Shown: positions 684 through 29,373 of the stretch, in pieces
Position numbering within the stretch: the stretch's first letter is position 1
How the letters are laid out: each line of letters starts with the position of its first letter
Source: Acidobacteriota bacterium
GTDB taxonomy: Bacteria > Acidobacteriota > Terriglobia > Acidiferrales > UBA7541
Direction: 5' to 3'
NCBI GenBank assembly: GCA_021324935.1
Contig: JAJPIE010000012.1
Coordinates: 248,001-312,000, forward strand
Length of the DNA: 64,000 nt
Translations under genes and position numbers: made by a program
Notes under the pieces: generated by a model
Seen by the model: only the letters and a program-made list of their open reading frames with translations
Told to the model about the DNA's origin: nothing
The model's database searches: none

Positions 684-2087
684 ATGAACAGGACACTGAC
701 ATTCATAGCTGGTTTTGTGGTCATCGCGTTCCCTTACCTTCTGTGTGCGCAAAGCCGAATGACGGTCCGTGGCGCAGATGATCGAATTAAAGCGGACATT
801 CTGGTGGTGGTGGCGCATCCCGATGACGAAGCGGCGGTGACACCATATCTGGTGCGGGCGATGTACGATCTGCACAAGCGGGTGGTGATCGTTTATGGGA
901 CGCATGGCGGAAGCGGGGGAAACAGCTACGGGAAGGAGCGCGCCGGCGCCCTGGCGGATATCCGCGAAATCGAGGCACGAGAGGCTTGTGCGAGGCTAGG
1001 AGTCAAGAACGTCTGGTTTCTCGACGGGAAGGACACTGCGTCACAAAACGTCCTGAATTCCCTGGCGCACTGGGGCCACGGGGAAAACCTTGAGCGACTC
1101 GTGCAATTGATTCGGCTGACGCGACCGGAGATCGTAATCGCTTCCATGCCCGGATTTTTTATCGGCGAGAATCATGGTGACCATCAGACCACTGGCGTGC
1201 TGGCTACCGAAGCGTTTGACCTCGCGGGAAATCCGGCGGCGTTTCCCGAGCAGCTTGCGGGTGCTTCGCCGCAGCGCGAGGTGTACCTGGAAAATCTGGG
1301 CGCGTGGCAGCCGAGCAAGCTTTATTTCTATCCGGATGCAAATGACGACAAGCAATTCGCTGGAACTGGCCCGGCTTATTCGGTGCTGGAAGTCTCGCCC
1401 TCACAGAAGAAGCCTTACTGGCGGCTGGCCCTGGATGCGGCAATGACGCACCTAACTCAATATCCGGAAGACATCGACCGAATCTTGAAATTGAGCGACC
1501 CCGAGATCGAAAAAATGATGCAAGACCCGGATCAGGGCTGGTGGACCGAACCGGAAACCCTCATCTTCGGTAAATCCGTCGTCGGCGGGAAGTCCACCGA
1601 CGACGTGTTTGCGAACGTCACCGCGCAGAATCCGCTGGGAGCAAAGCTTGGAGGGCAGGAGTCCCGCTGGGAGCCAGAACAAGCGCGGTTCGTGCTGGGC
1701 GGGCCGTGGGGCTTTTATGAGGAATTTCTGCGGGTGCACGGACTGACGAATCTTCCGGAAGCCAAGGTGCCGGAAATTGGCATCAAGGCGGGTACCCAAC
1801 TCTATATACCTCTGGTAATTCGGCACGAAGCGGGCGAGGCCATGCGAATCAAAACACAGGTGGAGGTGCCTGCAGGCTGGAAAGTGGCCAGCGGGCAAGG
1901 GGAGTTTGCGCTTCCGGCGGAAGTTTCGACGGATCTCCGCGTGGAGATCGATACCCCTGCAATATCAGCCGATGAATTGAAGAAGGCGGAACCGCAATTC
2001 ATCACCGTGCGTGCGGAATCGGGAGGAAAATTCCTAGGGGAAGTAAAACTCCAGGTGATGCTAAGGCACACCGCACTTCCTCAATAG
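684..2087 (+). CDS. Secreted PIG-L/LmbE-family deacetylase
   Basis: Likely zinc-dependent N-deacetylase acting on an N-acetylglucosamine-type or related amide outside the cytoplasm. A signal peptide (about residues 1-23, ending near CAQS) precedes the PIG-L domain. The family metal site AHPDDE is at residues 44-49 and HGDH at about 164-167. The C-terminal 130 residues look like a beta-sandwich module of the type often appended to secreted carbohydrate-active enzymes. At 467 aa it is longer than a bare PIG-L domain. The substrate cannot be told from sequence. The gene ends one base before the stop of the convergent SDR gene, so no separate terminator fits between them. Confidence 0.85.
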   Translation: MNRTLTFIAGFVVIAFPYLLCAQSRMTVRGADDRIKADILVVVAHPDDEAAVTPYLVRAMYDLHKRVVIVYGTHGGSGGNSYGKERAGALADIREIEAREACARLGVKNVWFLDGKDTASQNVLNSLAHWGHGENLERLVQLIRLTRPEIVIASMPGFFIGENHGDHQTTGVLATEAFDLAGNPAAFPEQLAGASPQREVYLENLGAWQPSKLYFYPDANDDKQFAGTGPAYSVLEVSPSQKKPYWRLALDAAMTHLTQYPEDIDRILKLSDPEIEKMMQDPDQGWWTEPETLIFGKSVVGGKSTDDVFANVTAQNPLGAKLGGQESRWEPEQARFVLGGPWGFYEEFLRVHGLTNLPEAKVPEIGIKAGTQLYIPLVIRHEAGEAMRIKTQVEVPAGWKVASGQGEFALPAEVSTDLRVEIDTPAISADELKKAEPQFITVRAESGGKFLGEVKLQVMLRHTALPQ

Positions 2088-2939
2088 CTACTTCTTCGGG
2101 CGCACTGCCTCGAGCTGTTCCCACACCGCATCCGGCAATAGCCCCAGATCATTGAATTCTCCGGCTCCACGCAGCCACTGGCTGCCGTCAATCACCACGC
2201 ATTCGCCATTGATGTATTCGGCCATGTCGCTCAAGAGAAATGCCGCGAGATTGGTAAGCTCTTCGTGTTTCCCGAAACGTTTCATGGGGATTTTACTGAT
2301 GGCGTGCTCTTCAAACTGTTTCGAAGGGATCAAGCGGGACCATGCTCCCTCGGTGGGGAATGGGCCCGGCGCGATCGCATTCACGCGAATATGGTATTTG
2401 GCCCATTCAACGGCCAGCGAGGTCGTCATCGCCAGCACACCCGCTTTTGCGCAGGCGGAAGGAACCACGTAGCCGCTGCCACAGTTTGCCGCCGCATAGG
2501 TCGTGGTGATGTTCAGAATATTTCCACCCAGTTTCTTTTCGATGCGGCGCTTGGCGAACGCCTGGGTGCAATGAAACGTGCCATTCAGCACGATGCCGAC
2601 CACGGCATTGAAGGCGTTGGAGGAAAGTTTCTCGGTTCGCGCCATGAAGTTTCCCGCCGCATTGTTGACCAGCGTGTCGATCTCGCCAAATTGCAATTCC
2701 GCCGCGGCAAATGCGGTTTCCACCGCTGCGTAGTCTCGGACATCGCAAGTCGCGAATGCTGCGGCTCCTCCATCGCGGTGGATTTCGTCACAGGTAGCCT
2801 TAAGAGGCTCTTCGCGACGCCCCACGACAAACAGCCGCGCGCCGAGTTTCGCGAAATGGATGGCCATGGAGCGGCCGAGGCCGGAGCCGCCTCCAGTCAG
2901 AAAAATAGCGCGATCTTTCAAAAGATCGGGTTGAAACAT
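2088..2939 (-). CDS. SDR oxidoreductase of the 2,4-dienoyl-CoA reductase type
   Basis: NADPH-dependent reductase probably acting on 2,4-dienoyl-CoA esters in beta-oxidation of unsaturated fatty acids. The cofactor motif TGGGSGLG and NNAAGN are present. Instead of the usual YxxxK dyad the active site reads VVPSACAKAGV, the SxxxK arrangement known from mitochondrial DECR1, and the C-terminal half (GEFNDL near the end) also fits that subfamily. The ATG at 2939 is chosen over an upstream in-frame start because GGAAAGGTGG precedes it and it directly precedes the Rossmann fold. A generic SDR role is the fallback interpretation. Confidence 0.85.
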   Translation of the reverse strand: MFQPDLLKDRAIFLTGGGSGLGRSMAIHFAKLGARLFVVGRREEPLKATCDEIHRDGGAAAFATCDVRDYAAVETAFAAAELQFGEIDTLVNNAAGNFMARTEKLSSNAFNAVVGIVLNGTFHCTQAFAKRRIEKKLGGNILNITTTYAAANCGSGYVVPSACAKAGVLAMTTSLAVEWAKYHIRVNAIAPGPFPTEGAWSRLIPSKQFEEHAISKIPMKRFGKHEELTNLAAFLLSDMAEYINGECVVIDGSQWLRGAGEFNDLGLLPDAVWEQLEAVRPKK

Positions 2940-3062
2940 GGCTGACCACCTTTCCCGCTGACGCAGCATTGTATCAACGACAATGTGGGAAACCATTCAG
3001 AAAAGGAGAGAGGCGGGAAGACAATCTGATTTCTTCCCGCCCGTGTTTCAAAGGAAAAGGTG

Positions 3063-3206
3063 CTAACCGCAAACCGGGCGTTTTCTTCCTGCCTTCTTAC
3101 CCGCTTCTTCTCTCGCGGCCAAGGCCACGCGGCCCGCCGCCAATTGCCTGCTGATCTTTTCCATCTTTGTGTGATGACCCAAGCCGGCTTTCCCGGTTTT
3201 TTTCAT
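3063..3206 (-). CDS. Small basic protein, 47 aa, unknown
   Basis: A 47-residue ORF rich in Lys, Arg and Ala, starting MKKTGKAGLGHHTKMEKISR. It has a near-ideal ribosome-binding site (GGAGGAAG, two bases before the ATG at 3206) and lies 43 bp downstream of the coiled-coil gene on the same strand, so the two are probably cotranscribed. No domain is recognised. The charge suggests nucleic-acid binding, but that is a guess. The good SD and placement are the only support for expression. Confidence 0.5.
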   Translation of the reverse strand: MKKTGKAGLGHHTKMEKISRQLAAGRVALAAREEAGKKAGRKRPVCG

Positions 3207-3249
3207 AACTTCCTCCCCGTCGAGCGACGAGGAACACCCACAGGCCGTC

Positions 3250-3537
3250 TCAATGAAGCGCTGCCATCAAGGCATCTACGGCTTGCATCAAGTCTTTCCA
3301 GGCCAAGTCCACTTCTTCCTGGAGTGTTGCGAGTTCGAGATCGTCCGCATCCTCGAGTTCCTGAACCCGCCGCTTGAATTCCGCGAATCGGCTGCGGACG
3401 TGGTCGAGTTCCCAGTAGTGGTCCAGCTTGACGCTGACTTTCTGCTTGGCGAACCGTCCTTTTAATTGGGCAACACGCGAGGCCACTTCCTCGACTTCCG
3501 TGGTTACTCGGTCCAAATACGCTTCCCTGGCTTGCAT
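3250..3537 (-). CDS. Small coiled-coil protein, 95 aa, unknown
   Basis: A predominantly helical, highly charged protein (many E/K/R/A/L with heptad-like spacing, for example VEEVASRVAQLKGRF and LEDADDLELATLQEEV), so probably a soluble coiled coil. The ATG at 3537 is preferred over a TTG 24 bases upstream because GAGGGA lies five bases before it while the TTG has no ribosome site. Similar short coiled-coil proteins with acidic ends are common and mostly uncharacterised. Probably transcribed with the small basic protein downstream. Confidence 0.6.
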   Translation of the reverse strand: MQAREAYLDRVTTEVEEVASRVAQLKGRFAKQKVSVKLDHYWELDHVRSRFAEFKRRVQELEDADDLELATLQEEVDLAWKDLMQAVDALMAALH

Positions 3538-3724
3538 GGCGTCCCTCAGTGCTGAATCCAATGGCTATGGGGCGGGAGCGGAACTCCCACGCAGGGGAAA
3601 GTGCAGGTGCTTCGCCAAAATGGAGCCTTGCTATGTTTATGAAGACAAATGTCTTAGTAAGCCGCTTTCCTGACAATTAAGACGGAATGCGTGGGAAGAC
3701 GCATCCGGAAGGCCTAGAAAGAAG

Positions 3725-3766
3725 AAAAAACCCACGGGAACGCGACGCTTGCGGCTGACAGTTCCC
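3725..3766 (-). terminator. Probable rho-independent terminator of the 3851-4747 gene
   Basis: Read on the minus strand, GGGAAC (3766-3761) can pair with GTTCCC (3741-3736), followed by a T6 run (3730-3725). An alternative 8-bp hairpin (748-755 with 773-780 of the 3 kb block) overlaps the same stretch. The rest of 3538-3850 holds no ORF I can support, only another short hairpin at 3687-3704. Confidence 0.5.
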
Positions 3767-3850
3767 CGGAGCGCCGCAAGATTCAGCAGCAGGCCGCGCT
3801 AGGGGAAGGTCTCGATGGCTGTCCCGTGTGAGTCCCGCGCTGTTCACCGA

Positions 3851-4747
3851 CTATTGCGCCGGCCGCATGGTCGCAGGGATCGGCCGCCCGAGCGCCTTTG
3901 CGTACTCGGTCTGATAGACCGTATTATCTGGGAACTCCTCGACCAGCTCCTTCAGGTTCTTGATCGCTAAGGCATCCTTTTTCTCTCGCCGGGCCGAAAG
4001 CGCCAGCAGAATCCTCGCGAACGGCTTCAGGTAATTTCCGTTATCCGCCGTTTTCTCCACCTCTCTCATGCCAAGGTCCTTGTCTCCGTGTATGCCCCCA
4101 AACCAGAGAATGAAGCGAGCAGACCCCGACAGCGAGCCGATCACGTAGTAGGCGACCCCGGGAGCGACATAGACATCGTACGCGTCCGGATGATCGGCTA
4201 ATAAAATCGCGGCGTTGTTATTCGCTTCCTTGAGATGCTTCAGGGCGTCATAGTGCTTTTTGAGCAGCATGCTGTCCGCATCGGACTCCATGCCTGCAGA
4301 AAGTGTGAGCGCAAACAGCCCTTCGGGATCGCGCTTATTCCGCTTCAGGCGCTGCTCGGCAAGTTGCCGCGCCTTCACAATCGCGTCATCAAAACCTTTC
4401 ATGCGGCCGGGATCGGGCGTGCCGGTAATGCCGCCGAGAAATCGCTTGTCATTCAAGAAATAGTCGCTCGTCAGCACTTGTTGCCGGTAAAATTCCTCGA
4501 AGAGATAGCTCGCGCCAATGGCCACCTGTCCGAATGGTTGCTCCGGATTTTTCGCCGCCCAGTCTTCAAACGTCGTTCTTGCTTCGGGAAATTTCTGCTC
4601 GTAGAGCAGATCGAACCCTTCCTTCAATTCAGGCACCGGACTGAAAGAGGGGGAATTCAGCACACTCGTCGATTGGCCGCTCGCTGGGGGCGATGACAGG
4701 AAGACGCTAATCGCGAGAATAAGTAGCAGAGCTTGCATCGAGCGCAT
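3851..4747 (-). CDS. Exported TPR-like protein of unknown function
   Basis: A 298-residue protein with an N-terminal signal peptide (cleavage near ASGQS, residues 22-26). Helical repeats read like TPRs: FDLLYEQKFPEARTTFEDWA early and AIKNLKELVEEFPDNTVYQ late. There are no catalytic motifs. It probably acts in the periplasm as a scaffold or binding protein. It is encoded 12 bp downstream of the ICMT-type methyltransferase on the same strand, so it may be the third gene of the polyketide synthase operon, though its role there is unclear. Confidence 0.65.
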   Translation of the reverse strand: MRSMQALLLILAISVFLSSPPASGQSTSVLNSPSFSPVPELKEGFDLLYEQKFPEARTTFEDWAAKNPEQPFGQVAIGASYLFEEFYRQQVLTSDYFLNDKRFLGGITGTPDPGRMKGFDDAIVKARQLAEQRLKRNKRDPEGLFALTLSAGMESDADSMLLKKHYDALKHLKEANNNAAILLADHPDAYDVYVAPGVAYYVIGSLSGSARFILWFGGIHGDKDLGMREVEKTADNGNYLKPFARILLALSARREKKDALAIKNLKELVEEFPDNTVYQTEYAKALGRPIPATMRPAQ

Positions 4748-4759
4748 GAGTCGTCAGCC

Positions 4760-5332
4760 TCAAAACAGACCCGGCAGAAACCGCGGTCTGCCCGACATGG
4801 CGTCGCGGTAATGCGAATCTGAAAAGAGGATTTTTTCCTCCATGGCGAGGCGTTGGGAAAGCACCAGGACATGGGCGGCGGAGCCAATCACAGCGGTGAT
4901 CCATGCGGTGTGAATCAGGGGCAAGACCAGCATTTCCGTGAACACGGCGGCATAGTTGGGGTGACGCACATAGCGAAATGGGCCGGTGGTCACGACACCA
5001 AGCCCGGTGGAGTTCATCACTTGTACGTTCCAATGTTCCCCAAGAGTGCGAATCACCCACCAGCGAACTGCATTGGCGGCGAGGAAAATCATAAAACACC
5101 CCGTAGCCAGCACGGGAATGAAGGGGCGATGCAGCAAGAGAACTTCACATCCCGCGCCTATGAGCATGCCAGTGTGGAGAAGCACCATCCATCGGAATTG
5201 GGGCTCTTCGATTTTAGACGCGCCGCGCGCCACCATATCCCGCTGATGGCTTTTCGAGATGCGCAACTCGTAAAGCCGCAGAACTGCGACCAGACCCAGC
5301 AGGATCAAAAAGGCGATAACGTTCAGTTCCAT
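4760..5332 (-). CDS. ICMT-family (isoprenylcysteine carboxyl methyltransferase-like) membrane methyltransferase
   Basis: A 190-residue, mostly hydrophobic protein with several membrane segments and the C-terminal SAM-binding signature TGPFRYVRHPNYAAVFTEM (RHPxY). Bacterial members often lie beside type III polyketide synthases and methylate phenolic lipids, as SrsB does for alkylresorcinols in Streptomyces griseus. Here the ATG at 5332 overlaps the end of the polyketide synthase gene by 10 bp, implying translational coupling. The likely job is O-methylation of the resorcinol or pyrone product. This is inferred from context; the family assignment itself is firm. Confidence 0.82.
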   Translation of the reverse strand: MELNVIAFLILLGLVAVLRLYELRISKSHQRDMVARGASKIEEPQFRWMVLLHTGMLIGAGCEVLLLHRPFIPVLATGCFMIFLAANAVRWWVIRTLGEHWNVQVMNSTGLGVVTTGPFRYVRHPNYAAVFTEMLVLPLIHTAWITAVIGSAAHVLVLSQRLAMEEKILFSDSHYRDAMSGRPRFLPGLF

Positions 5333-6414
5333 TGCAGTAGCAGGAATTCCGCGCTGAAGCCGGGTCCGAACGCGGCGGCGAGGGCGTGCTCTCCCGTCTT
5401 AAGGGGGCGTTTTTCCAGCCACTCCTGAAGAATAAAGAGGATGGTGGCACTGGAAAGGTTGCCGACGCAGCCGAGAACGTCCCAGGACGGCTGCGTGTCG
5501 CACTTGCAGAGGCCGAGTTCCTCTTCCACCGTCCCCAGCAGGCGCGCGCCGCCCGGATGCAGGATCCAGCCTTTGATTTCTGCCCGTGATTTTCCCTGCC
5601 GGTCGAGAAATCCGTGAACCAGTTCCTTGATTCGCCCGCCGATCATTTCCGGCACGTCTTTGCGCAGAATGATGTGAAAGCCGGAGTCGCGCAGATCGAA
5701 TCCCATGGCTCCAAGTGAATCCGGAAAGGTATAGGTTTCCGTCCCCAGAATCTGCGGCCCGGATTTCTTCTGGCCGCTCACAATCACGGCGGCAGCGCCA
5801 TCGCCGAAAAGAATCGACGAAATCAGGTTCGCCTGCGTGATGTCTTTTCGTTGGAAGGTAAGCGAAGGCAGCTCCACCGCAAGCACTAGCACGTTGGTTC
5901 CAGGATTCGCGGCAATGAAGTCCGCGGCCCGGGAAAGCCCCATGGCGCCCGCGGCACACCCCAATTCGGTAAACGGCATCCGCCGCACGTTGGACCGAAA
6001 ACCCATGAGCTGAATCAAATGAGCGTCCAGCGATGGAATCATGAAGCCCGTGCAGGAAACGGTGATAATCAGGTCGATATTCCGAGGCTCCATGCCGGCG
6101 CGTTTCAGGCACTTTTCGGTGGCTTCCTTGCCGAGTCTTATCGAATGCTCGATGTATTCATTATTTGTCTGGCAAAGCGGCCGGGGTTCAATCGTGTAGT
6201 CGATGGGGAAAATGGAATGCCGGTTATGGACCTGTGCGTTGTCCACAATGGCCATCATGGCCTCCACGCGGCGTTCCGGCACTTCGAACACGCGACCGAA
6301 GTAATACTTCACGTCATCGCGGGTAATCCGGTGGGGTGGGAGCGCAGTTGCCGTGGCGACGATGGTAGGATGCGGCCCGTGGCCGTTTGAAGAACTGCGT
6401 TCCAAGATGTTCAC
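5323..6414 (-). CDS. Type III polyketide synthase (chalcone/alkylresorcinol synthase-like)
   Basis: Condenses acyl-CoA starters with malonyl-CoA to give alkylpyrones or alkylresorcinols. The thiolase-fold catalytic triad is visible: Cys in FTELGCAAGAMGLS, His in ILHPGGARLL and Asn in CVGNLSSATIL, followed by the C-terminal GFGPGFSAE-type loop (here AFGPGFSAEFLLLQW). With the GTG at 6414 the protein is 363 aa, normal for the family. AGGA lies eight bases upstream of that GTG. An ATG at 6528 would add 38 unusual residues and leave only about 30 bp to the divergent gene, too little for two promoters. First gene of a PKS-methyltransferase operon. Confidence 0.9.
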   Translation of the reverse strand: MNILERSSSNGHGPHPTIVATATALPPHRITRDDVKYYFGRVFEVPERRVEAMMAIVDNAQVHNRHSIFPIDYTIEPRPLCQTNNEYIEHSIRLGKEATEKCLKRAGMEPRNIDLIITVSCTGFMIPSLDAHLIQLMGFRSNVRRMPFTELGCAAGAMGLSRAADFIAANPGTNVLVLAVELPSLTFQRKDITQANLISSILFGDGAAAVIVSGQKKSGPQILGTETYTFPDSLGAMGFDLRDSGFHIILRKDVPEMIGGRIKELVHGFLDRQGKSRAEIKGWILHPGGARLLGTVEEELGLCKCDTQPSWDVLGCVGNLSSATILFILQEWLEKRPLKTGEHALAAAFGPGFSAEFLLLQWN

Positions 6415-6558
6415 AAGCACCGTCCTGGCAAACGAGAGAGTTGACCACAGCGCCTGGCATTTACCGGCGCGCAACGAAGTCCGTGCAATGCTCGGGGCGC
6501 ACCCTACGTGGCGCATACTGTACATCAAATTGACTCATAGGGGAAACACGAGGTGACC

Positions 6559-7956: not shown

Positions 7957-9792
7957 CTACCCGGCGGCTTCCTGGCTGGCGCGAATCTCTTGCCAGCGCC
8001 GCGGGCGCTTGTTCGCCTGCAGCACTTTTTTCCGCAGGCGGATCGATTTTGGCGTCACTTCCACGAACTCGTCGTCGGCGATAAATTCAATCGCTTGCTC
8101 CAGGCTGAGCTGGCGATGCGGCACCAGGCGAATCGCCTCGTCGGCCGTGGAGGAACGCATGTTCGTGAGCTTCTTTTCCTTCGTGACGTTCACGTCCATG
8201 TCTTGCTCGCGCGAGTTTTCGCCCACGATCATGCCCTCGTAAACTTCCACGGTTGGGCCGATAAAAAGCTCGCCGCGCTCCTGAATTCCCCAAAGCGCGT
8301 ACGCCGTGGATATGCCGGCGCGATCCGCCACCAGCGCGCCCGTGGGGCGCAGTGCCATGTCCCCGCCATATTCCACCCAGCCTTCAAAAATGGAATGAAT
8401 CAGAGCTGTGCCGCGCGTGTCGGTCAGCAACTGGCTACGCAGTCCTATCAACCCGCGCGAAGGAATCTTGAAGTCCAGGCGCACGCGGCCGGAGCCGTGA
8501 TTGCTCATCTTGAGCATTTCGCCGCGCCGGCTGCCGAGGGTCTCCATGATGATGCCGATATAATTTTCGGGAACGTCGATCACCAGGCGTTCCACCGGCT
8601 CAAGTTTCTTGCCCTTTTCCGTGCGCACCACGATTTCCGGCTTGCCCACCATCAACTCAAAACCTTCGCGACGCATGGTTTCAATCAGAATGGCAAGTTG
8701 CAGCTCACCCCGGCCGAGCACGCGGAATGATTCCGGAGTGTCCGTGTCTTCCACGCGAATCGAGACATTGGTCAGAAGCTCCTTGGCCAGGCGGTCGCGA
8801 AGGTCGCGCGACGTCAGATAGTTTCCCTCACGGCCCGAGAGCGGGCCGGAGTTCACGGAAAAGATCATCGCCAGCGTGGGTTCGTCGATCGTGAGCGGCT
8901 CGAGTGGCTGGGGATTTTCCAGCGATGTAATGCTCTCGCCGATCTGAATGCCTTCGACGCCCGCAATCGCCACGATATCTCCAGCGGCGACCTTATCGGC
9001 TTCATCCCGCTCCAGCCCGCGAAACGTGAAAAGCTTGGTGATTTTCGTGGACTGCAATTTGCCGTCGAGCTTGCTGATGCCGACTTCCTCGCCACGCTTC
9101 AGTGTTCCGTTGAACACGCGGCAGATCGCCAGGCGGCCGAGAAATTCGGAGTAGTCGAGATTGGTCACCTGGAGTTGCAGGACGCCGTCGGCATCGCCGC
9201 TCGGCGCGGGAATCTTGTTGACGATGGCCTCAAAGAGGGGAAGCAAATCTTGGGAACCGTCGCCTACCTTCCAGTGCGCCACGCCTTCGCGTGCATTGGT
9301 GTACACAATCGGAAACTCCAGCTGCTCTTCGGTGGCATCGAGGTCGATGAAAAGGTCGTAAATTTCGTTCAGTACCTCTTCAGGCCGCGCGTCAGGGCGG
9401 TCGATCTTGTTCAGGACGACGACCGGAGGCAGCTTCGCCGCCAGAGCCTTCTGCAAGACATAGCGCGTCTTCGGCAGCGGGCCTTCGCTGGCGTCCACCA
9501 GCATCACTACGCCGTCCACCATTCGCAGCGCGCGTTCCACCTCGCCGCCGAAATCGCTGTGGCCAGGCGTGTCCACGATGTTGATCTTCGTGTCGTGGAA
9601 AAATAGAGCAGTATTCTTGGCCAGAATGGTGATCCCGCGCTCGCGTTCCAGATCGTTGGAGTCCATCACGCGCTCGACCACTTCCTGGTTGGCGCGGAAA
9701 ATTCCGCTTTGGCGGAGCATCGAATCGACAAGTGTCGTCTTGCCGTGGTCCACGTGGGCAATAATCGCGATATTACGAATGTCTTTGTTCAT
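7957..9792 (-). CDS. typA: Translational GTPase TypA/BipA
   Basis: Ribosome-associated GTPase of the EF-G family, involved in 50S assembly and stress or cold adaptation. The P-loop [12 protein letters not shown] lies near the N-terminus, followed by switch [20 protein letters not shown] and the [12 protein letters not shown] guanine-specificity motif. The EF-G-like domains III and V and the BipA-specific C-terminal domain follow. At 611 aa it is full length. A well-formed promoter and a terminator hairpin lie in the leader just upstream and are listed separately. Confidence 0.96.
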
Positions 9793-9814
9793 TTCCGTTC
9801 AAACGTCTTAAGAC

Positions 9815-9840
9815 AAAAATAGCCCCGACCCGGTCGGGGC
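9815..9840 (-). terminator. Intrinsic terminator-like hairpin inside the typA leader
   Basis: On the minus strand, GCCCCGACC pairs perfectly with GGTCGGGGC around one unpaired base (positions 9840-9822), immediately followed by TATTTTTG. It sits only 23 bp upstream of the typA ATG and downstream of a good promoter, with no gene in between to terminate. Either a short leader RNA ends here or typA expression depends on read-through. Confidence 0.7.
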
Positions 9841-9889
9841 CCAGACGAATCCTTTCCTCTTCAAAGCCGGTGAAGTTCTACAAACCATT

Positions 9890-9918
9890 ATTTTAGCAGA
9901 GGAACGTGAGCGCACCAA
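9890..9918 (-). promoter_or_regulatory. Predicted sigma-70 promoter of typA
   Basis: On the minus strand TTGGTG (9918-9913), a 17-base spacer and TAAAAT (9895-9890) give a good housekeeping-type promoter. The transcript would start near 9883, giving a leader of about 90 nt that contains the hairpin at 9815-9840. Confidence 0.55.
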
Positions 9919-9982
9919 CGGCTGGTCCGCAGTGTGATATGCTCGCGTCGATTTTTTGCATAACTAAGGGGTTTTCCGATCT

Positions 9983-11863
9983 ATGAAGACATTCCAGCGG
10001 ATTCTGATCGCAGCTTCGCTTTTGTGGGCTGTTCGTCCCACCCTCCAAGGGCAGGAGACGGGCCGCCCCGACTTGCCATCGCTGTTCGACAAGCGCGAAG
10101 TGATGATTCCGATGCGGGATGGCGTGAAGCTACACACAGAAATTTACACACCGAAGGACGCGAAACAAACCCTGCCGGTCTTCCTGGAGCGCACGCCCTA
10201 CGGAATTTCCGCCGAAGACAAAGGCTACAGCCACAAACTCTACAATTACGCGCACATGTTCGCCGACGGCTATGTCTTCGTGTTCCAGGATATTCGCGGC
10301 CGCTACGGTTCCGAAGGCCAATTTGTGATGAACCGCCCGGTTCACGATCCCAGCGATTCCAAGGGCATCGATGAAAGCACCGACACTTACGACACTATCG
10401 ACTGGCTGGTGAAAAACGTGCCAAACAACAACGGCCGCGTGGGCATTGCGGGAATTTCCTATGGCGGATTCCTCGCCGCCATGGCGCTGATCAATCCGCA
10501 TCCCGCGCTAAAAGCGGTTTCCGAGCAGGCTTGCATGGGCGATACCTGGATGGGCGACGATTTCTTTCACAACGGCGCTTTTCGGCTGAGCTATGGCTAT
10601 GAATACGCCACGGAAATGGAGACGAACAAGGAGCACTTCCAACTGAAGTTCGACCGCGAGGATTTATACGATTGGTATCTTCACGCAGGGCCGCTCTCCA
10701 ATTTCAACAAGGAATATCTGCACGGAAAAATTCCGTCATGGAACAGTTTTGTCGAGCACCCGGCCTACGACGATTTCTGGAGACGCAAGGCCATTGCTTA
10801 CGCGCTGCATCAGGCAACCGTGCCGAACCTCAATGTAGCCGGTTGGTGGGACCAGGAAGACTTTTACGGTCCCCTGGCCACCTACGCCAATCTTGAAAAG
10901 AACGATGCGGCGCACCTGGACTTTCTGGTGGTTGGCCCCTGGAATCATGGCGGATGGGCACACGGCCCCGGAAATTTCCTCGGGTCCATTCCATTCGGCA
11001 GCAACACCGCGGAGTATTTCCGCAATCAGGTGGAAGCGCCCTGGTTTGCCTTCTATTTGCACGATAAAGGCGCCTTGCCCCTGAAAGAAGCGCTGCTTTT
11101 TCAGACCGGCAGCGATGTCTGGACAAGGTTCGATTCCTGGCCACCAAAGGATGCCCCGATAAAAAGCCTCTATTTCGGAGCCAAGGGAAAACTGAGCTTC
11201 GAGTCGCCAAAAGGCGATTCGGCCGACGCTTTCGATTCCTATATCAGTGATCCCGCGAATCCCGTTCCCTATCGAAACCGTCCAGTCGACGAAACTTATC
11301 CTTCCGACCATCCTGGCCGTTGGTATACATGGTTAGTGCAGGACCAGCGCTTTGTGGAGAACCGGCCTGATGTCCTCACTTGGCAAACCGACGAACTCAC
11401 CGAGGATGTAACCGTCACCGGCGAAGTGACTGCTAGGCTGTTTGCCTCGACTACGGGTTCCGATGCCGACTGGGTGGTCAAACTGATTGATGTTTATCCG
11501 GAAAAGCCCGATTCTGACTTGAATCTCGCGGGCTACGAGCTGATGATCTCCGACGAAATCTTTCGCGGCCGCTATCGCAACTCTTACGAAAAACCGGAGC
11601 CGCTCGTTCCGGGGGAAATCACGCCGTTCACGATCGATCTGCACACCGCGAACCACGTCTTCAAGAAAGGGCACCGCATCATGGTGCAGGTGCAAAGCAC
11701 CTGGTTCCCGCTTTACGATCGGAATCCGCAGAAATTTGTGCCTAATATTTTCGAAGCCAAGGCATCCGATTTTCAGAAGGCCACGGAAAAAATCTATCGC
11801 AACACCAGGTTCCCTTCGCACGTTGAGATTCAGGTTCCGGCCGCTCCGTCCGCAGCCAATTGA
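9983..11863 (+). CDS. Exported CocE/NonD-family (S15) acyl hydrolase
   Basis: Serine hydrolase related to cocaine esterase, alpha-amino-acid ester hydrolase and glutaryl-7-ACA acylase. A signal peptide (about 1-24) is followed by the alpha/beta-hydrolase core with RTPYG, FQDIRGRYGSEG, the nucleophile elbow GISYGG and the late VVGPWNHGGW His region. The C-terminal 200 residues are the jelly-roll domain of the family (EVTARLFASTTGSDADWVVKL). At 626 aa it is full length. It probably cleaves esters or amides of short peptides in the periplasm; substrate unknown. Confidence 0.88.
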   Translation: MKTFQRILIAASLLWAVRPTLQGQETGRPDLPSLFDKREVMIPMRDGVKLHTEIYTPKDAKQTLPVFLERTPYGISAEDKGYSHKLYNYAHMFADGYVFVFQDIRGRYGSEGQFVMNRPVHDPSDSKGIDESTDTYDTIDWLVKNVPNNNGRVGIAGISYGGFLAAMALINPHPALKAVSEQACMGDTWMGDDFFHNGAFRLSYGYEYATEMETNKEHFQLKFDREDLYDWYLHAGPLSNFNKEYLHGKIPSWNSFVEHPAYDDFWRRKAIAYALHQATVPNLNVAGWWDQEDFYGPLATYANLEKNDAAHLDFLVVGPWNHGGWAHGPGNFLGSIPFGSNTAEYFRNQVEAPWFAFYLHDKGALPLKEALLFQTGSDVWTRFDSWPPKDAPIKSLYFGAKGKLSFESPKGDSADAFDSYISDPANPVPYRNRPVDETYPSDHPGRWYTWLVQDQRFVENRPDVLTWQTDELTEDVTVTGEVTARLFASTTGSDADWVVKLIDVYPEKPDSDLNLAGYELMISDEIFRGRYRNSYEKPEPLVPGEITPFTIDLHTANHVFKKGHRIMVQVQSTWFPLYDRNPQKFVPNIFEAKASDFQKATEKIYRNTRFPSHVEIQVPAAPSAAN

Positions 11864-11866
11864 GAT

Positions 11867-12934
11867 TTAACGCTTCGCGGCCATGCTCGCCGGACCCTTG
11901 GAATCACTGGGAATCAGATTCAACACCACCTGAAACCACCAGTTCGGCTGATATCGGATTTGCACCGGGACGCCGCGCAGATCGCCTCGTGTTCCCACCA
12001 GGATGGAAAAGTAGACTTTCTTGCCGGTCAGCTTGTGCGCCGACACAAAATCTAGCTGTGACAGATTCTGATACGCCGTGTCGAGCAGCAGTGTATTGTT
12101 CGGCCCGTGGAGTTGCACGGGTAATTGATCCACTCGCGAGGCATGTTCCAAGGTGAGCGTGTTCTCTTGCGCGTCGTAAACATAACAGCGCGCAATCGGA
12201 GCCTTCTGCCCCTCCAGGGAAACATCAATCAACTCGGCTACCGTCTCCAGAAACTCTTCGGCGCGCGGGCACCGCGAAGTCTCATCCAGTGACCGCACTG
12301 CTTGCGTCGAGCCGTTCAGGCGCTCGATCATGACGGGCTCCGCCTGATCGTAATCATGCAAATTATAATCGGCATCCGACTCCAGATTGGTTACCAGCGA
12401 CACCGCGCGAGCGGGTTCCACGCGGCTCAAGATGCCTGTGAACGAGTGCTGGCTGTGTTCCTGCTCGTGTCTCAACTCCTCCTGCATTTCCCCTGCCGAT
12501 TTCCCCCGCGAGGATTTCATAAACCCAAAGAAAGCGCTGGATGTTACATCTTCCGGGGACGCCGTTTCGAGTAACGGCTTCACATGCCAGGAGATTTCTG
12601 TCCCCGCACCCCAACGGTTGATGGCTCGAGGAGCTTTTGCCGGATCGCTGCCAAACAGCACCTGGATAATTTCCTTGCGCGCGTCCTCGCTTGCTACTCC
12701 ACGGCGGATATAGCCGCCGCCGACATCATCCTTCCCCGCCCAGAAAAAAAGCAGCCGCACTCGGGCGGTCATCTCGTAGTTGTACTGGACAATTCTCTTG
12801 GGCGAGGAGCGGACCCACTCGAGGGCCTCCGCGATAGGTTGGCGATCCGACTTAGGAGAGGAAGCGGCCGGAAGGAGAAAGAGAACAAAAAACAGGCTCA
12901 AACTGGGGAGTCTTGCATTAATTGCGGCCCTCAC
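11867..12934 (-). CDS. Exported protein of unknown function
   Basis: A 355-residue protein starting at a GTG, with a signal peptide (hydrophobic SLSLFFVLFLLPAASS, about residues 11-26). No catalytic motif is recognised. The middle contains an acidic, His-rich stretch (LRHEQEHSQHSF) and the C-terminal part reads as beta-rich (VQIRYQPNWWFQVVLNLIP), like an outer-membrane-lipid or polymer-binding protein. The stop lies three bases from the end of the convergent S15 hydrolase gene, and it is divergent from the PHP/GT4 pair. The start codon is uncertain. Confidence 0.55.
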   Translation of the reverse strand: MRAAINARLPSLSLFFVLFLLPAASSPKSDRQPIAEALEWVRSSPKRIVQYNYEMTARVRLLFFWAGKDDVGGGYIRRGVASEDARKEIIQVLFGSDPAKAPRAINRWGAGTEISWHVKPLLETASPEDVTSSAFFGFMKSSRGKSAGEMQEELRHEQEHSQHSFTGILSRVEPARAVSLVTNLESDADYNLHDYDQAEPVMIERLNGSTQAVRSLDETSRCPRAEEFLETVAELIDVSLEGQKAPIARCYVYDAQENTLTLEHASRVDQLPVQLHGPNNTLLLDTAYQNLSQLDFVSAHKLTGKKVYFSILVGTRGDLRGVPVQIRYQPNWWFQVVLNLIPSDSKGPASMAAKR

Positions 12935-25607: not shown

Positions 25608-27767
25608 TCAATCGTCGCCGTGGGCTGGCTCCGGAGCATGGCCCTCAGCGCCGGATTCCTCCGGTGTTTCCACCAAGCCCGCCTTCACCAGTTGCCGGTA
25701 ATAGGCAGGGCGTGTGTGCCGATAGTGGTCGGCGGAAATCTTGCCGTCCAGCCAGGCGGTATCCATTGGGTAGACCATTGGATCGAAGATCACCAGGTAA
25801 AAGTGCCAAATCAGGATGGCAAAGGTGGCGAGGATGGCCTCGTACCAGTGCACTGCCGTAGCCGCGTCCGCCACCCACTTCGGGAAATGACGCAGCGTGA
25901 AATTGTTGAACCACAGCAGGAAGCCGGAAGCGGCCATGACTAGGGTCCCCCACATGAAGGCCAGATATTCCATTTTCTCCGCGTAGTTGAACTTCGAGAA
26001 TTTCGGCTCTTTTTCCGAGAGACCGAGGTTGTAGAGCAATACATCCACGATGTCTGTGGCATCCTTCATGGTCGGAATCATCGACCAGATAAACGACCGG
26101 TCGCGTTTCCTGATAAGCAGATGCAACGCGTGGTAGAGGGTCGCCGCAATCATCACCACCGCCGCAACGCGATGCAGGCCGCCACGCACGCCTGCGTTGG
26201 CTTCCCATGCGAACAACGGTCTTGCCCACCAACTCTCCGGGTATCTCAGCGCGAAGCCGGTTACCACCAGCGTTGGGAAGCTGGCCATGATTCCCCAGTG
26301 CGCCACGCGGAACCACAAATTCATGCGCATCACAATTTCGCCCGATTCATGCCTCGGCCGGCGCCGGATCAGCTTGCTAAGCAGATCCAGCAGATTGTGC
26401 AGTAGCATGAAGCCCAGCGTTGCGGGGATCAGGACCCAATACGTCCAGCGGATCCACTTCACCACCGGATGATTTGGGCCCGTGCTCGTTTGCACGTGGA
26501 TCGGTCCGATGGCATAGTCCGCCTTGTCCGCGCCCCTATGGCATTGACCGCAGGTCTTTGCCAGATTCGCTGCATTCACCATCGAGCGTGGGTCCGCGGA
26601 TTTGAAGATGTTGTGGACCCCATGACACGACGCACAATTCGCCGCCGTCAACTTGCCGCCCTTCAGCGCCAGCCCGTGATAGCTGTCCGCGTACGAAGGC
26701 ACGCGGTCGCTCGGCAAGTCGTACAACCTCGCCATGCGGGCGCTTCCGTGGCAGCGGCCGCAGGTTTCCGATGAGACGTTCGCCGCGTTCACCGGAGAGT
26801 TGGGATTCTTCGGTTCCAGGATCAGGTGTTCGCCATGGCAGTCCACGCAAACCGGCGCATCTTTAACGCCGGCACGAACCGCTTCGCCGTGAACGCTCTG
26901 CTGGTAAGTGTTTGCAATCTCTTTATGGCAGGTGCCGCAGGTGTTCGCAACTTTCCAATGGTTTACATGGGATCGCGAATCCATTGCCGGATATATGTCG
27001 TGATTGCCGTGACAGTCGTTGCACTTCGCCGCTTTCGTATCGCCGGCCGCCACCGCTTGTCCGTGGACGCTTTGCTTGTAGGAATCCACTGGATGCGCAA
27101 TGGGAATCTCGTGCCGCGACAAAAAGCCCGCGTCACTGTGGCATTTCGCGCACGTGTCTGGAAGGCGCTTCGCGGAAACCGCGGAGTCAGCATCATCCGC
27201 CGGTTTCACCCCGTGAATGGAGCCGTGGCACGACTCGCAAGTCGGCGCGTCCGGATCGCCTCTCTTTGCCGCTTGGCCGTGGATGCTGTCGGCAAACTGC
27301 TTTACTTCATCGGCATGGCATTCTTCGCATTTCGCCGGCGCTAGCTTCTCCGTGCTGGTCAATTCGTGGACGTTCCCGTGACACGAGGCGCAAGCCGTTT
27401 CGCCGAGCATCGCATGCACGCTCGTGCCAAATGCCTTCTCCTCGTCGCTATGGCACGTGGCACATTCCACTTTTGCAATCTTGGCCGGGTGCGGAAATTC
27501 CTTGATGGAAGTGTGGCAATCCGTGCATCCCAAAACGCCATGAGCGCTGGCGGCGTGCTTTGCGGGATTCACCGAAATGTCCCGGCCTTTTTCGGACTTC
27601 ATTCCTGCGGTGCGATGGCATGCCAGGCACGCTTCCTCTTTTTTCGGTGCTGAAGCGGCTTTCTCTTTGGTGGCAGCATGGGTGGGAGCGAGCACCCATA
27701 CCAGCGCGATTAGCAAGCCGGGCAAATTCCATGTCCGGCCTTGCCGCTCCGCTCGTTTGGAGCTCAT
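25608..27767 (-). CDS. Thirteen-heme cytochrome c fused to a membrane cytochrome b domain
   Basis: Predicted quinone-linked redox protein. After a signal peptide (about 1-31), residues 45 to 430 carry 13 CxxCH motifs, starting ACLACH and ending TCGQCH, many with CHGxxH contexts typical of stacked bis-His hemes. The last 260 residues contain five membrane segments with paired His (for example FRVAHWG, LHRVAAVV, LYHALHLL, AVHWYEA, LIWHFYL), like the cytochrome b of formate dehydrogenase or thiosulfate reductase. It could pass electrons between the quinone pool and periplasmic acceptors; the direction is not shown. Followed 40 bp upstream by the NapC-like gene in the same orientation. Confidence 0.85.
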   Translation of the reverse strand: MSSKRAERQGRTWNLPGLLIALVWVLAPTHAATKEKAASAPKKEEACLACHRTAGMKSEKGRDISVNPAKHAASAHGVLGCTDCHTSIKEFPHPAKIAKVECATCHSDEEKAFGTSVHAMLGETACASCHGNVHELTSTEKLAPAKCEECHADEVKQFADSIHGQAAKRGDPDAPTCESCHGSIHGVKPADDADSAVSAKRLPDTCAKCHSDAGFLSRHEIPIAHPVDSYKQSVHGQAVAAGDTKAAKCNDCHGNHDIYPAMDSRSHVNHWKVANTCGTCHKEIANTYQQSVHGEAVRAGVKDAPVCVDCHGEHLILEPKNPNSPVNAANVSSETCGRCHGSARMARLYDLPSDRVPSYADSYHGLALKGGKLTAANCASCHGVHNIFKSADPRSMVNAANLAKTCGQCHRGADKADYAIGPIHVQTSTGPNHPVVKWIRWTYWVLIPATLGFMLLHNLLDLLSKLIRRRPRHESGEIVMRMNLWFRVAHWGIMASFPTLVVTGFALRYPESWWARPLFAWEANAGVRGGLHRVAAVVMIAATLYHALHLLIRKRDRSFIWSMIPTMKDATDIVDVLLYNLGLSEKEPKFSKFNYAEKMEYLAFMWGTLVMAASGFLLWFNNFTLRHFPKWVADAATAVHWYEAILATFAILIWHFYLVIFDPMVYPMDTAWLDGKISADHYRHTRPAYYRQLVKAGLVETPEESGAEGHAPEPAHGDD

Positions 27768-27806
27768 AAAATGCTACCTCCGGGCCGTGAAGGCCCACCT
27801 GTTTTA

Positions 27807-29255
27807 CTATTGCAATCCGAGGTCCTTAAGAATTTTCGGATTTTCCTCCTGTACCGCCAGCAAGTTATGGCAGGCGGAGCAATCGTTGGAAATCGTTTGG
27901 CCGTCCGCACTGGTGTGTGATCCGTCGTGGCACCGGAAACACCCCGGAAAATCGTTATGCCCAAGGTTGTTGGGGTGCACGCCCCAAGTCACTTTCATGT
28001 CTGGAAAGATATTTCGCAGATAGATCTGCGCTGTCGTGTCGGCCGCCTGCTCCACTAAGGCACGCTTGCTGTTGTAAACGTCCGGATAATTTGTGCGGTA
28101 GAAGGTTTCGATTCCTTCCACGATCTGCTTGTGCGCCGTATCACGGTCCGGATAATTCACCTTCAACACTTCGACTGCCTTTTTGCGGATGTATGGGAGT
28201 TCCGCGCTGATCAGGCCACGCGACATCCTCAGGTCCACGGCGTTCTCCGGCAACTCAAACGCATGCGTGGGACGGTTATGGCAATCGATGCAATCCATCG
28301 TGCGCTCTTCACCCTTCGCGAGTTCTTCTTTGGTGACCTTGATGTCCGTTGAAACAAACTCAATCGTTTTTCCCTGGTCATCGGTGTAGTAGACCACGGG
28401 GATGACCTGCCTCTGAGCATCTGTCGAGATATAGTGAATGCGAGATCCCGAATCCAGATGTCGCCCGTGAATGCCTACGGATCCGTTCGCTTGCCGGCCG
28501 CCGATCTTGACGATCAGTGCCGTCGTCAACGGTGTGTTCTTCTCGTCGTCCTTGTAATTCATTTTCATGATGAACTTGTCGCCGGAAAACCGCTGAGGCC
28601 AATGGCACTGCTCACAAGTCTCCCGCGCCGGCCGCAGGTATTTCACAGGCGAAGGAATCGGGCGCGAATAGGTGTGGAACGTCACCGCAAACACTTGGCG
28701 TAATCCAGACAGTTTCGAGCGCACGAACCATCCCGCGCCGGGGCCGATGTGGCATTCCACGCATTCCACGCGCGAGTGTGGCGAATTCTGGTAAGCGGAA
28801 TACTCCGGCGCCATCACTGTATGGCATGTCTTGCCGCAGAACGTAGTGGTATCCATGTAGGACACCCCTTTGTATGAGGCAAAGGAAAAGATCAGGACGT
28901 TCAGCACGGTCGCTGCGCCAATGAACAGGAAGCTGTGCTGCACCATCGGTATCTTCAGGTCAATTTCGGGGTAAATGTGCGGGAGTTGTCCCGCATTGCG
29001 CAATTCCCGTCGGCGCAACAGGATTCCGAGTGGAATCAGGGCCAATCCGAGCGCGAATACTCCGGGCAAAATCAGAAAAATCAGGATACCGACATACGGG
29101 TGCGGTGGCCCGGGGAGAATGAAGTCGTAAATCCAGAACGCGACCAGGGTAACGGCAGTGCTCGTGGTGAGCACAACGCCGATAAAACTGAAGGTGTTCT
29201 GGCTGAAATAGTAGAGTAGACGCGCCCAATCCCTGGCCGTGACCTTTAAACTCAT
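27807..29255 (-). CDS. NapC/NirT-like membrane multiheme cytochrome c
   Basis: Predicted quinol-oxidising or electron-relay cytochrome. Three N-terminal hydrophobic segments anchor it. The heme sites are FCGKTCHTVM (spaced Cx3CH), then five CxxCH sites: CVECH, CEQCH, CIDCH, CFRCH and CSACH. The first segment CGKTCHTVMAPEYSAY and the following HSRVECVECHIGPGAGW match NapC/NirT-type proteins. The ATG at 29255 is preferred over a GTG nine codons upstream because GGGGAG precedes it at eight bases. It is encoded between the small cytochromes and the 13-heme protein, probably one electron-transfer operon. Confidence 0.85.
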   Translation of the reverse strand: MSLKVTARDWARLLYYFSQNTFSFIGVVLTTSTAVTLVAFWIYDFILPGPPHPYVGILIFLILPGVFALGLALIPLGILLRRRELRNAGQLPHIYPEIDLKIPMVQHSFLFIGAATVLNVLIFSFASYKGVSYMDTTTFCGKTCHTVMAPEYSAYQNSPHSRVECVECHIGPGAGWFVRSKLSGLRQVFAVTFHTYSRPIPSPVKYLRPARETCEQCHWPQRFSGDKFIMKMNYKDDEKNTPLTTALIVKIGGRQANGSVGIHGRHLDSGSRIHYISTDAQRQVIPVVYYTDDQGKTIEFVSTDIKVTKEELAKGEERTMDCIDCHNRPTHAFELPENAVDLRMSRGLISAELPYIRKKAVEVLKVNYPDRDTAHKQIVEGIETFYRTNYPDVYNSKRALVEQAADTTAQIYLRNIFPDMKVTWGVHPNNLGHNDFPGCFRCHDGSHTSADGQTISNDCSACHNLLAVQEENPKILKDLGLQ

Positions 29256-29373
29256 ACGGGTATCTCCCCAGCCTACTTTCACTCGATTTTTCTTGGCCCC
29301 GGCGAAGGATACGCCAGGGCCTCTGGACTAGCCCATACTCGGTGAGCCTGGAGAGACAGGCCCTGCGGTGAAC

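Follow-up and report, generated by a model that had tools for sequence, protein, structure and literature searches.

An acidobacterial type III polyketide synthase gene overlapping a methyltransferase gene, with a TPR-like gene as candidate partner

Genes at the locus

The window, a stretch of 64,000 nucleotides, comes from the 4.5-Mb draft genome of an Acidobacteriota bacterium (G000). Genes for a type III polyketide synthase (PKS), an ICMT-type methyltransferase and a TPR-like protein follow one another on its minus strand (Table 1). The first-pass annotation had described a complete PKS gene overlapping the ICMT gene by 10 bp, and a TPR gene that starts 12 bp beyond the end of the ICMT gene. 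These coordinates were confirmed, and all three products score above their Pfam cut-offs. We take the overlap as a sign of translational coupling, and the three genes as a probable single operon. The GTG start of the PKS at 6414 has an AGGA 8 nt upstream, and the reading frame is open further 5', to a TTG at 6528.

The SDR gene is the next conserved gene after the TPR gene in 13 of the 15 loci of the genus that have a TPR. It scores 290.5 bits against NF005811, which has a cut-off of 318. In the window a gap of 854 bp separates it from the TPR gene, and its membership of the operon is uncertain.

Table 1. Features of the synthase locus, in coordinates of the window
Feature	Position	Strand	Basis or remark
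Type III PKS, BpsA/SrsA/Pks11-like, 363 aa from GTG	5323..6414	-	Pfam, triad, best PDB relative Pks11
ICMT-type integral-membrane SAM methyltransferase, 190 aa, RHPNY and EE motifs	4760..5332	-	PF04140
Overlap of PKS stop and ICMT start, 10 bp	5323..5332	-	
TPR-like protein, 298 aa, signal-like N-terminus	3851..4747	-	TPR_14, hydropathy
SDR, 2,4-dienoyl-CoA reductase-like	2088..2996	-	NF005811, below cut-off
Small ORF between TPR and SDR, 103 aa	3250..3561	-	One congener has a relative (45 %)

The synthase and its methyltransferase

The PKS matches the Chal_sti_synt_N (PF00195) and Chal_sti_synt_C (PF02797) domains at 88.3 and 72.7 bits (cut-off 27). The catalytic triad Cys153-His286-Asn319 and the GPGF loop (G350-F353) are invariant in two alignments, of 13 and 25 rows. 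The best relative of solved structure is Pks11 (E 5.7e-64, 219.5 bits), followed by CylI (4.4e-54) and 1u0m (3.0e-51), with plant acridone synthase at 1.3e-40 (142.7 bits). Excerpts of PMC8086630 describe pyrones and resorcinols as the products of Pks11 and CylI. Among solved structures the PKS scores closer to the lipid-type than to the chalcone-type enzymes. The earlier likening of the gene pair to the srsA-srsB phenolic-lipid genes is borne out by this order, in which Pks11 and CylI are nearest, and the grouping with non-lipid chalcone-type enzymes that would have spoken against it was not seen. By PKS, the nearest named relatives are metagenome assemblies of Acidobacteria, and the top four include three with the label 'gp2'.

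The PKS might instead make a non-lipid aromatic, tetrahydroxynaphthalene or a small phenol, with the ICMT-type enzyme methylating either that product or a prenylated protein. The structure 1u0m, presumably THN synthase, comes close behind CylI, and the nearest NCBIfam model is that of DpgA (178.1 bits, far under its cut-off of 425). However, Pks11 outscores 1u0m by 42 bits, the alkylpyrone pair of Bacillus likewise has an ICMT-type gene coupled to the PKS gene, and an ACP-KS pair stands beside the PKS at four related PKS-A loci (L281, L284, L287 and L288). We regard a non-lipid product as very unlikely. The locus is best read as making a methylated lipid, either an alkylpyrone or an alkylresorcinol. 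The position of Trp281 of ArsB is described as bearing on the choice between pyrone and resorcinol (PMC9927152, in part).

A tree of 92 PKS rows contains two acidobacterial clades. One of them groups with Bacteroidota rows and the other with Corallococcus; the window PKS is in clade A. L064 and L151, both on long branches, come together in this tree, a placement to be read with caution. One PKS match broken by an in-frame stop (L226) was excluded from the tree.

The methyltransferase matches the ICMT family (PF04140) at 83.4 bits against a cut-off of 24, and its profile matches the solved ICMT 4a2n (E 4e-12). Seven overlapping hydropathy peaks lie in three regions (residues 3-21, 49-97 and 134-163), membrane segments being judged by hydropathy only. 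Residues R123-Y127 and E165 are invariant in a 12-row alignment and E166 nearly so. Its gene position marks the product as SrsB/BpsB-like.

Among 80 loci found with the PKS alignment, an ICMT match lies after or near the PKS in 19. These are nine Acidobacteria close to the window (L077-L085), six Bacillota, two Corallococcus, one Acidobacteriota contig (L147) and one Deltaproteobacterium (L151). No ICMT match was found in the other 61 loci, mostly from Bacteroidota. Since PKS-ICMT pairs are also present in Bacillota and Myxococcota, the window's pair is classed with the known Bps, Srs and Pkq systems. Of 35 acidobacterial PKS-ICMT loci examined, a set that includes duplicate fetches of one genome (for example L007/L078 and L008/L079), 34 have an in-frame ATG at the 10-bp overlap; none of ten other pairs has it. 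The conservation of this ATG comes in part from the PKS, whose last Trp codon (TGG) is itself conserved.

The bpsA-bpsB operon of Bacillus has the same two-gene order of PKS and membrane methyltransferase, and is described as producing alkylpyrones, one of them 4-O-methylated (PMC5686519, in part). Bps-like pairs are found in the six Bacillota loci (L086, L093, L100, L109, L126 and L135), with a PKS identity to the window of about 37-41 %. Unlike the window, these six loci have no TPR match, and the 10-bp ATG overlap is absent from the Bacillota pairs checked.

In Streptomyces and Mycobacterium a PKS, a methyltransferase and an oxidoreductase together yield alkylbenzoquinones, described as electron carriers (PMC9927152, excerpts). 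By gene family, homologues of the PKS, methyltransferase and flavin oxidoreductase of the srsABC operon of Streptomyces griseus and the pkqABC operons of Mycobacterium and Streptomyces, which lead from an alkylresorcinol to a methylated alkylbenzoquinone, are all present in the window's genome. Unlike in those operons, the oxidoreductase, together with a YceI gene, lies at another locus, and the window has the TPR gene in addition. Cyanobacterial hidABC and planctomycetal operons combine a PKS, a methyltransferase and an FAD oxidoreductase; the enzyme set is shared with the window, the gene order differs, and excerpts of the source mention no TPR (PMC10896814). According to the same excerpts, one planctomycete-related PKS operon also encodes a lipoprotein and a protein that binds lipids or isoprenoids, and a YceI-like neighbour of a type III PKS is therefore not new.

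Linkage of the TPR gene to type III synthases

The first-pass annotation had put the TPR gene forward as a new candidate partner, with its conservation beside the PKS as the point to check. Within the genus, 15 of 19 genomes have both PKS and TPR and three have neither, two of the latter being at least 96 % complete. The remaining genome has a PKS without a TPR match, on a contig that stops inside the ICMT gene.

The class was surveyed in 250 genomes, with at least 150 PKS matches and at least 150 TPR matches; the counts given here are of matches listed, and some surveyed loci are one genome fetched twice. A TPR-family match lies at most 3 kb from the PKS in 69 of 150 PKS matches listed, against about 0.2 expected by chance. 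Among the matches listed, 67 of the 69 linked pairs are on the same strand, and the gap is shorter than 200 bp in 41. By group, the linked share of the PKS matches listed is 21/22 in the genus g1, 24/43 in f11, 11/16 in f7, 8/14 in f6 and 1/1 in f4. In other genera of the window's family (f1) the TPR is near only 4 of 31 PKS matches listed, and in f3, f5, f8, f9, f10 and f13 near none of 23. The gene is thus conserved beside the PKS, as proposed, and the association recurs well outside the genus.

The order of the genes differs between the PKS clades, upstream and downstream being set by gene midpoints. Where linked, clade A has the order PKS-ICMT-TPR, and in clade B the TPR is mostly directly upstream of the PKS. 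On the PKS tree the TPR label can be explained by 11 changes, compared with 29.5 on average after shuffling, the loci having been partly picked for the TPR; in the 29 clade-B loci the TPR is present in all by construction, a bias which the label test shares. The TPR tree has two subfamilies, A and B, that mirror the PKS clades, apart from paralogues of about 400 aa. TPRs that are not linked to a PKS occur inside both subfamilies.

The TPR gene could be a mere syntenic neighbour with an unrelated job in the envelope, the PKS and ICMT acting alone as in Bacillus. The flanking PIG-L and TypA genes are conserved in the genus too, and 81 of the 150 PKS matches listed have no listed TPR within 3 kb, although weak TPR matches may be missed in this count. 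Of the 131 genomes with a strong TPR (at least 220 bits, with G009, a split match, added by hand), 34 gave no PKS match at 1e-40. Eight extra TPR loci, seven of them outside the class (from seven of the eight genomes with a TPR match, G284 being left out), gave no PKS, ICMT, KS, ACP, YceI or hydroxylase match nearby. From the unlinked PKS matches and the PKS-free TPR loci it follows that the TPR is not strictly tied to the PKS. Against mere synteny, the linkage is shared by two PKS clades that lie far apart and order their genes differently, which argues for function rather than leftover synteny, the 69 linked pairs listed far exceed the chance figure, and within the genus TPR and PKS are absent together. 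We consider a purely syntenic TPR unlikely. Across the 250 genomes, both genes occur in 97, a strong TPR only in 34, a PKS only in 55 and neither in 64 (Fisher p 9e-6, uncorrected for relatedness).

Its sequence context makes the TPR gene a genuine candidate for a partner of the type III PKS, and one that can be tested. Its presence beside two kinds of type III PKS across the class is a new element. None of the titles and abstracts listed from the open-access literature, which leaves most subscription journals outside, describes a TPR partner of a type III PKS.

Hydroxylase, YceI and ACP-KS neighbours

After the TPR-PKS pair of clade B there is variously a flavin hydroxylase, a YceI lipid-binding protein, an ACP or a KS. 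The 29 clade-B loci, which were chosen for their TPR, include a hydroxylase in 11, an ACP in 13, a KS in 12, a YceI in seven and an ICMT in none. At L063 (G025, 9287-12628) ACP, KS, TPR and PKS lie in this order on one strand, which puts two genes resembling those of type II FAS next to a type III PKS. At L287 (G197, 880-5238) an ICMT-PKS pair is divergent from an ACP-KS-TPR run that the TPR closes. In one TPR-PKS-ACP-KS cluster the KS is followed by a ferric-reductase-like protein, just under the Pfam cut-off (L216:10959-11612), which hints at a redox use of the product there.

No ACP, KS or flavin hydroxylase match stands beside the window's PKS. The window's genome has a flavin hydroxylase followed by a YceI at another place, outside the window (G000:C94:13446-14540; L297:8284-10155), and this hydroxylase is 46 % identical to a clade-B one. 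The pair corresponds to the cassette found after clade-B PKSs in other families. A flavin hydroxylase was found in seven of eight genus genomes searched, one congener having no match, and the hydroxylase-YceI pair in six of seven genus loci fetched. In a tree the genus hydroxylases group with those linked to clade-B PKSs (100/99); L205-L208 are labelled PKS-B in it although they stand at PKS-A loci. PKS, methyltransferase and flavin hydroxylase stand together in two relatives (L082 and L084). One congener (L067, G003) has, in addition to its clade-A operon, another PKS that belongs to clade B and comes with a hydroxylase and a YceI. Another locus has the order PKS-ICMT-hydroxylase-TPR, with one in-frame stop in the PKS match (L226, G210).

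Together with the window genes, the C94 hydroxylase and YceI give the organism homologues for synthesis, methylation, hydroxylation and lipid binding that do not form one operon. The presence of this cassette elsewhere in the genome makes a methylated, quinone-type lipid plausible. The window operon and the C94 cassette may act on one product.

The TPR protein and the proposed pathway

The TPR protein matches TPR_14 at 28.0 bits (cut-off 23.5). Under a hydropathy rule that chooses the best start, 31 of 39 linked TPRs have a signal-like hydrophobic N-terminus, in agreement with the exported TPR-like protein of the first-pass annotation. A lipoprotein reading was dropped, a lipobox-like site being present in three of the 39 by a simple rule.

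A structural model of the TPR protein, built from five input rows, is all-helical and of modest quality (pLDDT 64, pTM 0.67). The TPR profile found nothing useful among solved structures (one chain at E 0.39), and a Foldseek search with the model gave no match at E <=0.001, the best being 2pl2 at 1.6e-3. In VIA-align the model matches 3u64 with Z 11.4 over 203 residues and the TPAT-family protein 8g52, which we take to be BstC, with Z 10.2 over 209. The TatT structures 3u64 and 4di3 rank high (Z 11.4 and 11.2, for a model with pLDDT 64). Like the window TPR, TatT (Tp0956) and BstC are all-helical and TPR-like, and they match it structurally over nearly the whole length. BstC is described as resembling Tp0956 and as having a hydrophobic cavity, in which sterols were placed by docking (PMC10942540, in part). 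The likeness of the window TPR to both is no higher than that to ordinary TPR proteins; PEX5, APC/C and others tie with TatT/TPAT in VIA-align, and the likeness to TatT/TPAT is therefore a lead only. It was set aside as proof of the role of the TPR. The TatT family (PF16811) is not among the 19 Pfam families that match ten TPR members (E <=10, with filters that drop weak matches).

The eukaryotic TPR family Iml2/TTC39 (PF10300, cut-off 22.2) is reached by two acidobacterial paralogues of about 400 aa, at 32.0 and 22.9 bits (L074:8944-10203 and L073:5612-6823). The PKS-linked TPRs scored all stay below this cut-off. A short TPR without a PKS (G106:C82) reaches 22.7 only with its neighbours in frame, and long ordinary TPR proteins reach the cut-off too. 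Iml2 is tied to yeast lipid droplets in excerpts of PMC10301655.

Other TPR genes differ in their surroundings. At L071 a TPR is near a LolA gene. An unlinked TPR at L233 stands beside a periplasmic-binding-type protein with no evident lipid link, and further unlinked TPRs have neighbours of which the same can be said. Downstream of PKS-unlinked TPR-A genes there is a fusion of AMP-ligase, ACP and acyltransferase (L228:4470-7274 and L229:1936-4866). The gene contexts favour a lipid-handling role of the TPR in the periplasm, with a scaffold role also possible. It could also serve several lipids or something else.

We consider it probable that the three genes work as one translationally coupled operon, which yields a long-chain type III polyketide lipid in methylated form, and that the TPR acts on the product side. 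From what is known of the family, the PKS would start from a fatty acyl group and lengthen it with malonyl-CoA, giving an alkylpyrone, an alkylresorcinol or an alkylresorcylic acid. The membrane-embedded ICMT-type enzyme would then methylate an oxygen of this amphiphile, as inferred from BpsB and from SrsB, which reportedly has the methyltransferase chemistry taken as the model here. The exported TPR would help this lipid into the envelope; its simplest role would be that of a periplasmic protein that binds or carries the lipid, and it might also be a scaffold. Finally, the flavin hydroxylase might oxidise the methylated product and the YceI-type protein carry it, both being encoded elsewhere in the genome; in the Srs/Pkq operons an oxidoreductase likewise acts after PKS and methyltransferase. 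With this gene set the soil bacterium most likely equips its cell envelope with an oily phenol or pyrone that carries a methyl group.

In a variant of the third step the TPR would be a protein-protein scaffold or an outer-membrane assembly factor that does not bind lipid. TPR folds usually bind proteins, which counts for this variant, and many of the best structural matches are scaffolds. Several neighbours of the TPR are lipid enzymes or lipid carriers, however, and the predicted export would part the TPR from a cytosolic PKS. We hold the variant to be possible, if on the unlikely side; its probability overlaps with that of the lipid operon as a whole.

A wider reading is that the class has an undescribed envelope lipid system, in which a type III PKS lipid is O-methylated by the coupled ICMT-type enzyme, oxidised to an alkylquinone by a flavin hydroxylase and taken across the periplasm by two dedicated exported proteins, the TPR and a YceI; the lipid, which is not an isoprenoid, would have a redox or barrier function. 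On this reading the TPR family would be a new bacterial lipid carrier distantly akin to Iml2/TTC39. We regard this reading as unlikely.

Phenolic lipids and polyketide quinones have been linked elsewhere to antibiotic resistance and to respiration at low oxygen (PMC9927152 and PMC12224551, in part). A TPR beside the synthase may mark lipids of this type in a class of soil bacteria. We know of no account of how phenolic lipids or polyketide quinones leave the inner membrane, and the recurrent, apparently exported TPR (and YceI) beside the synthase is a testable candidate for this step.

At some distance from the synthase locus, the minus strand of the window holds two CxxCH-rich genes (25608..29282; 719 and 491 aa), which are probably a multihaem electron-transfer unit.
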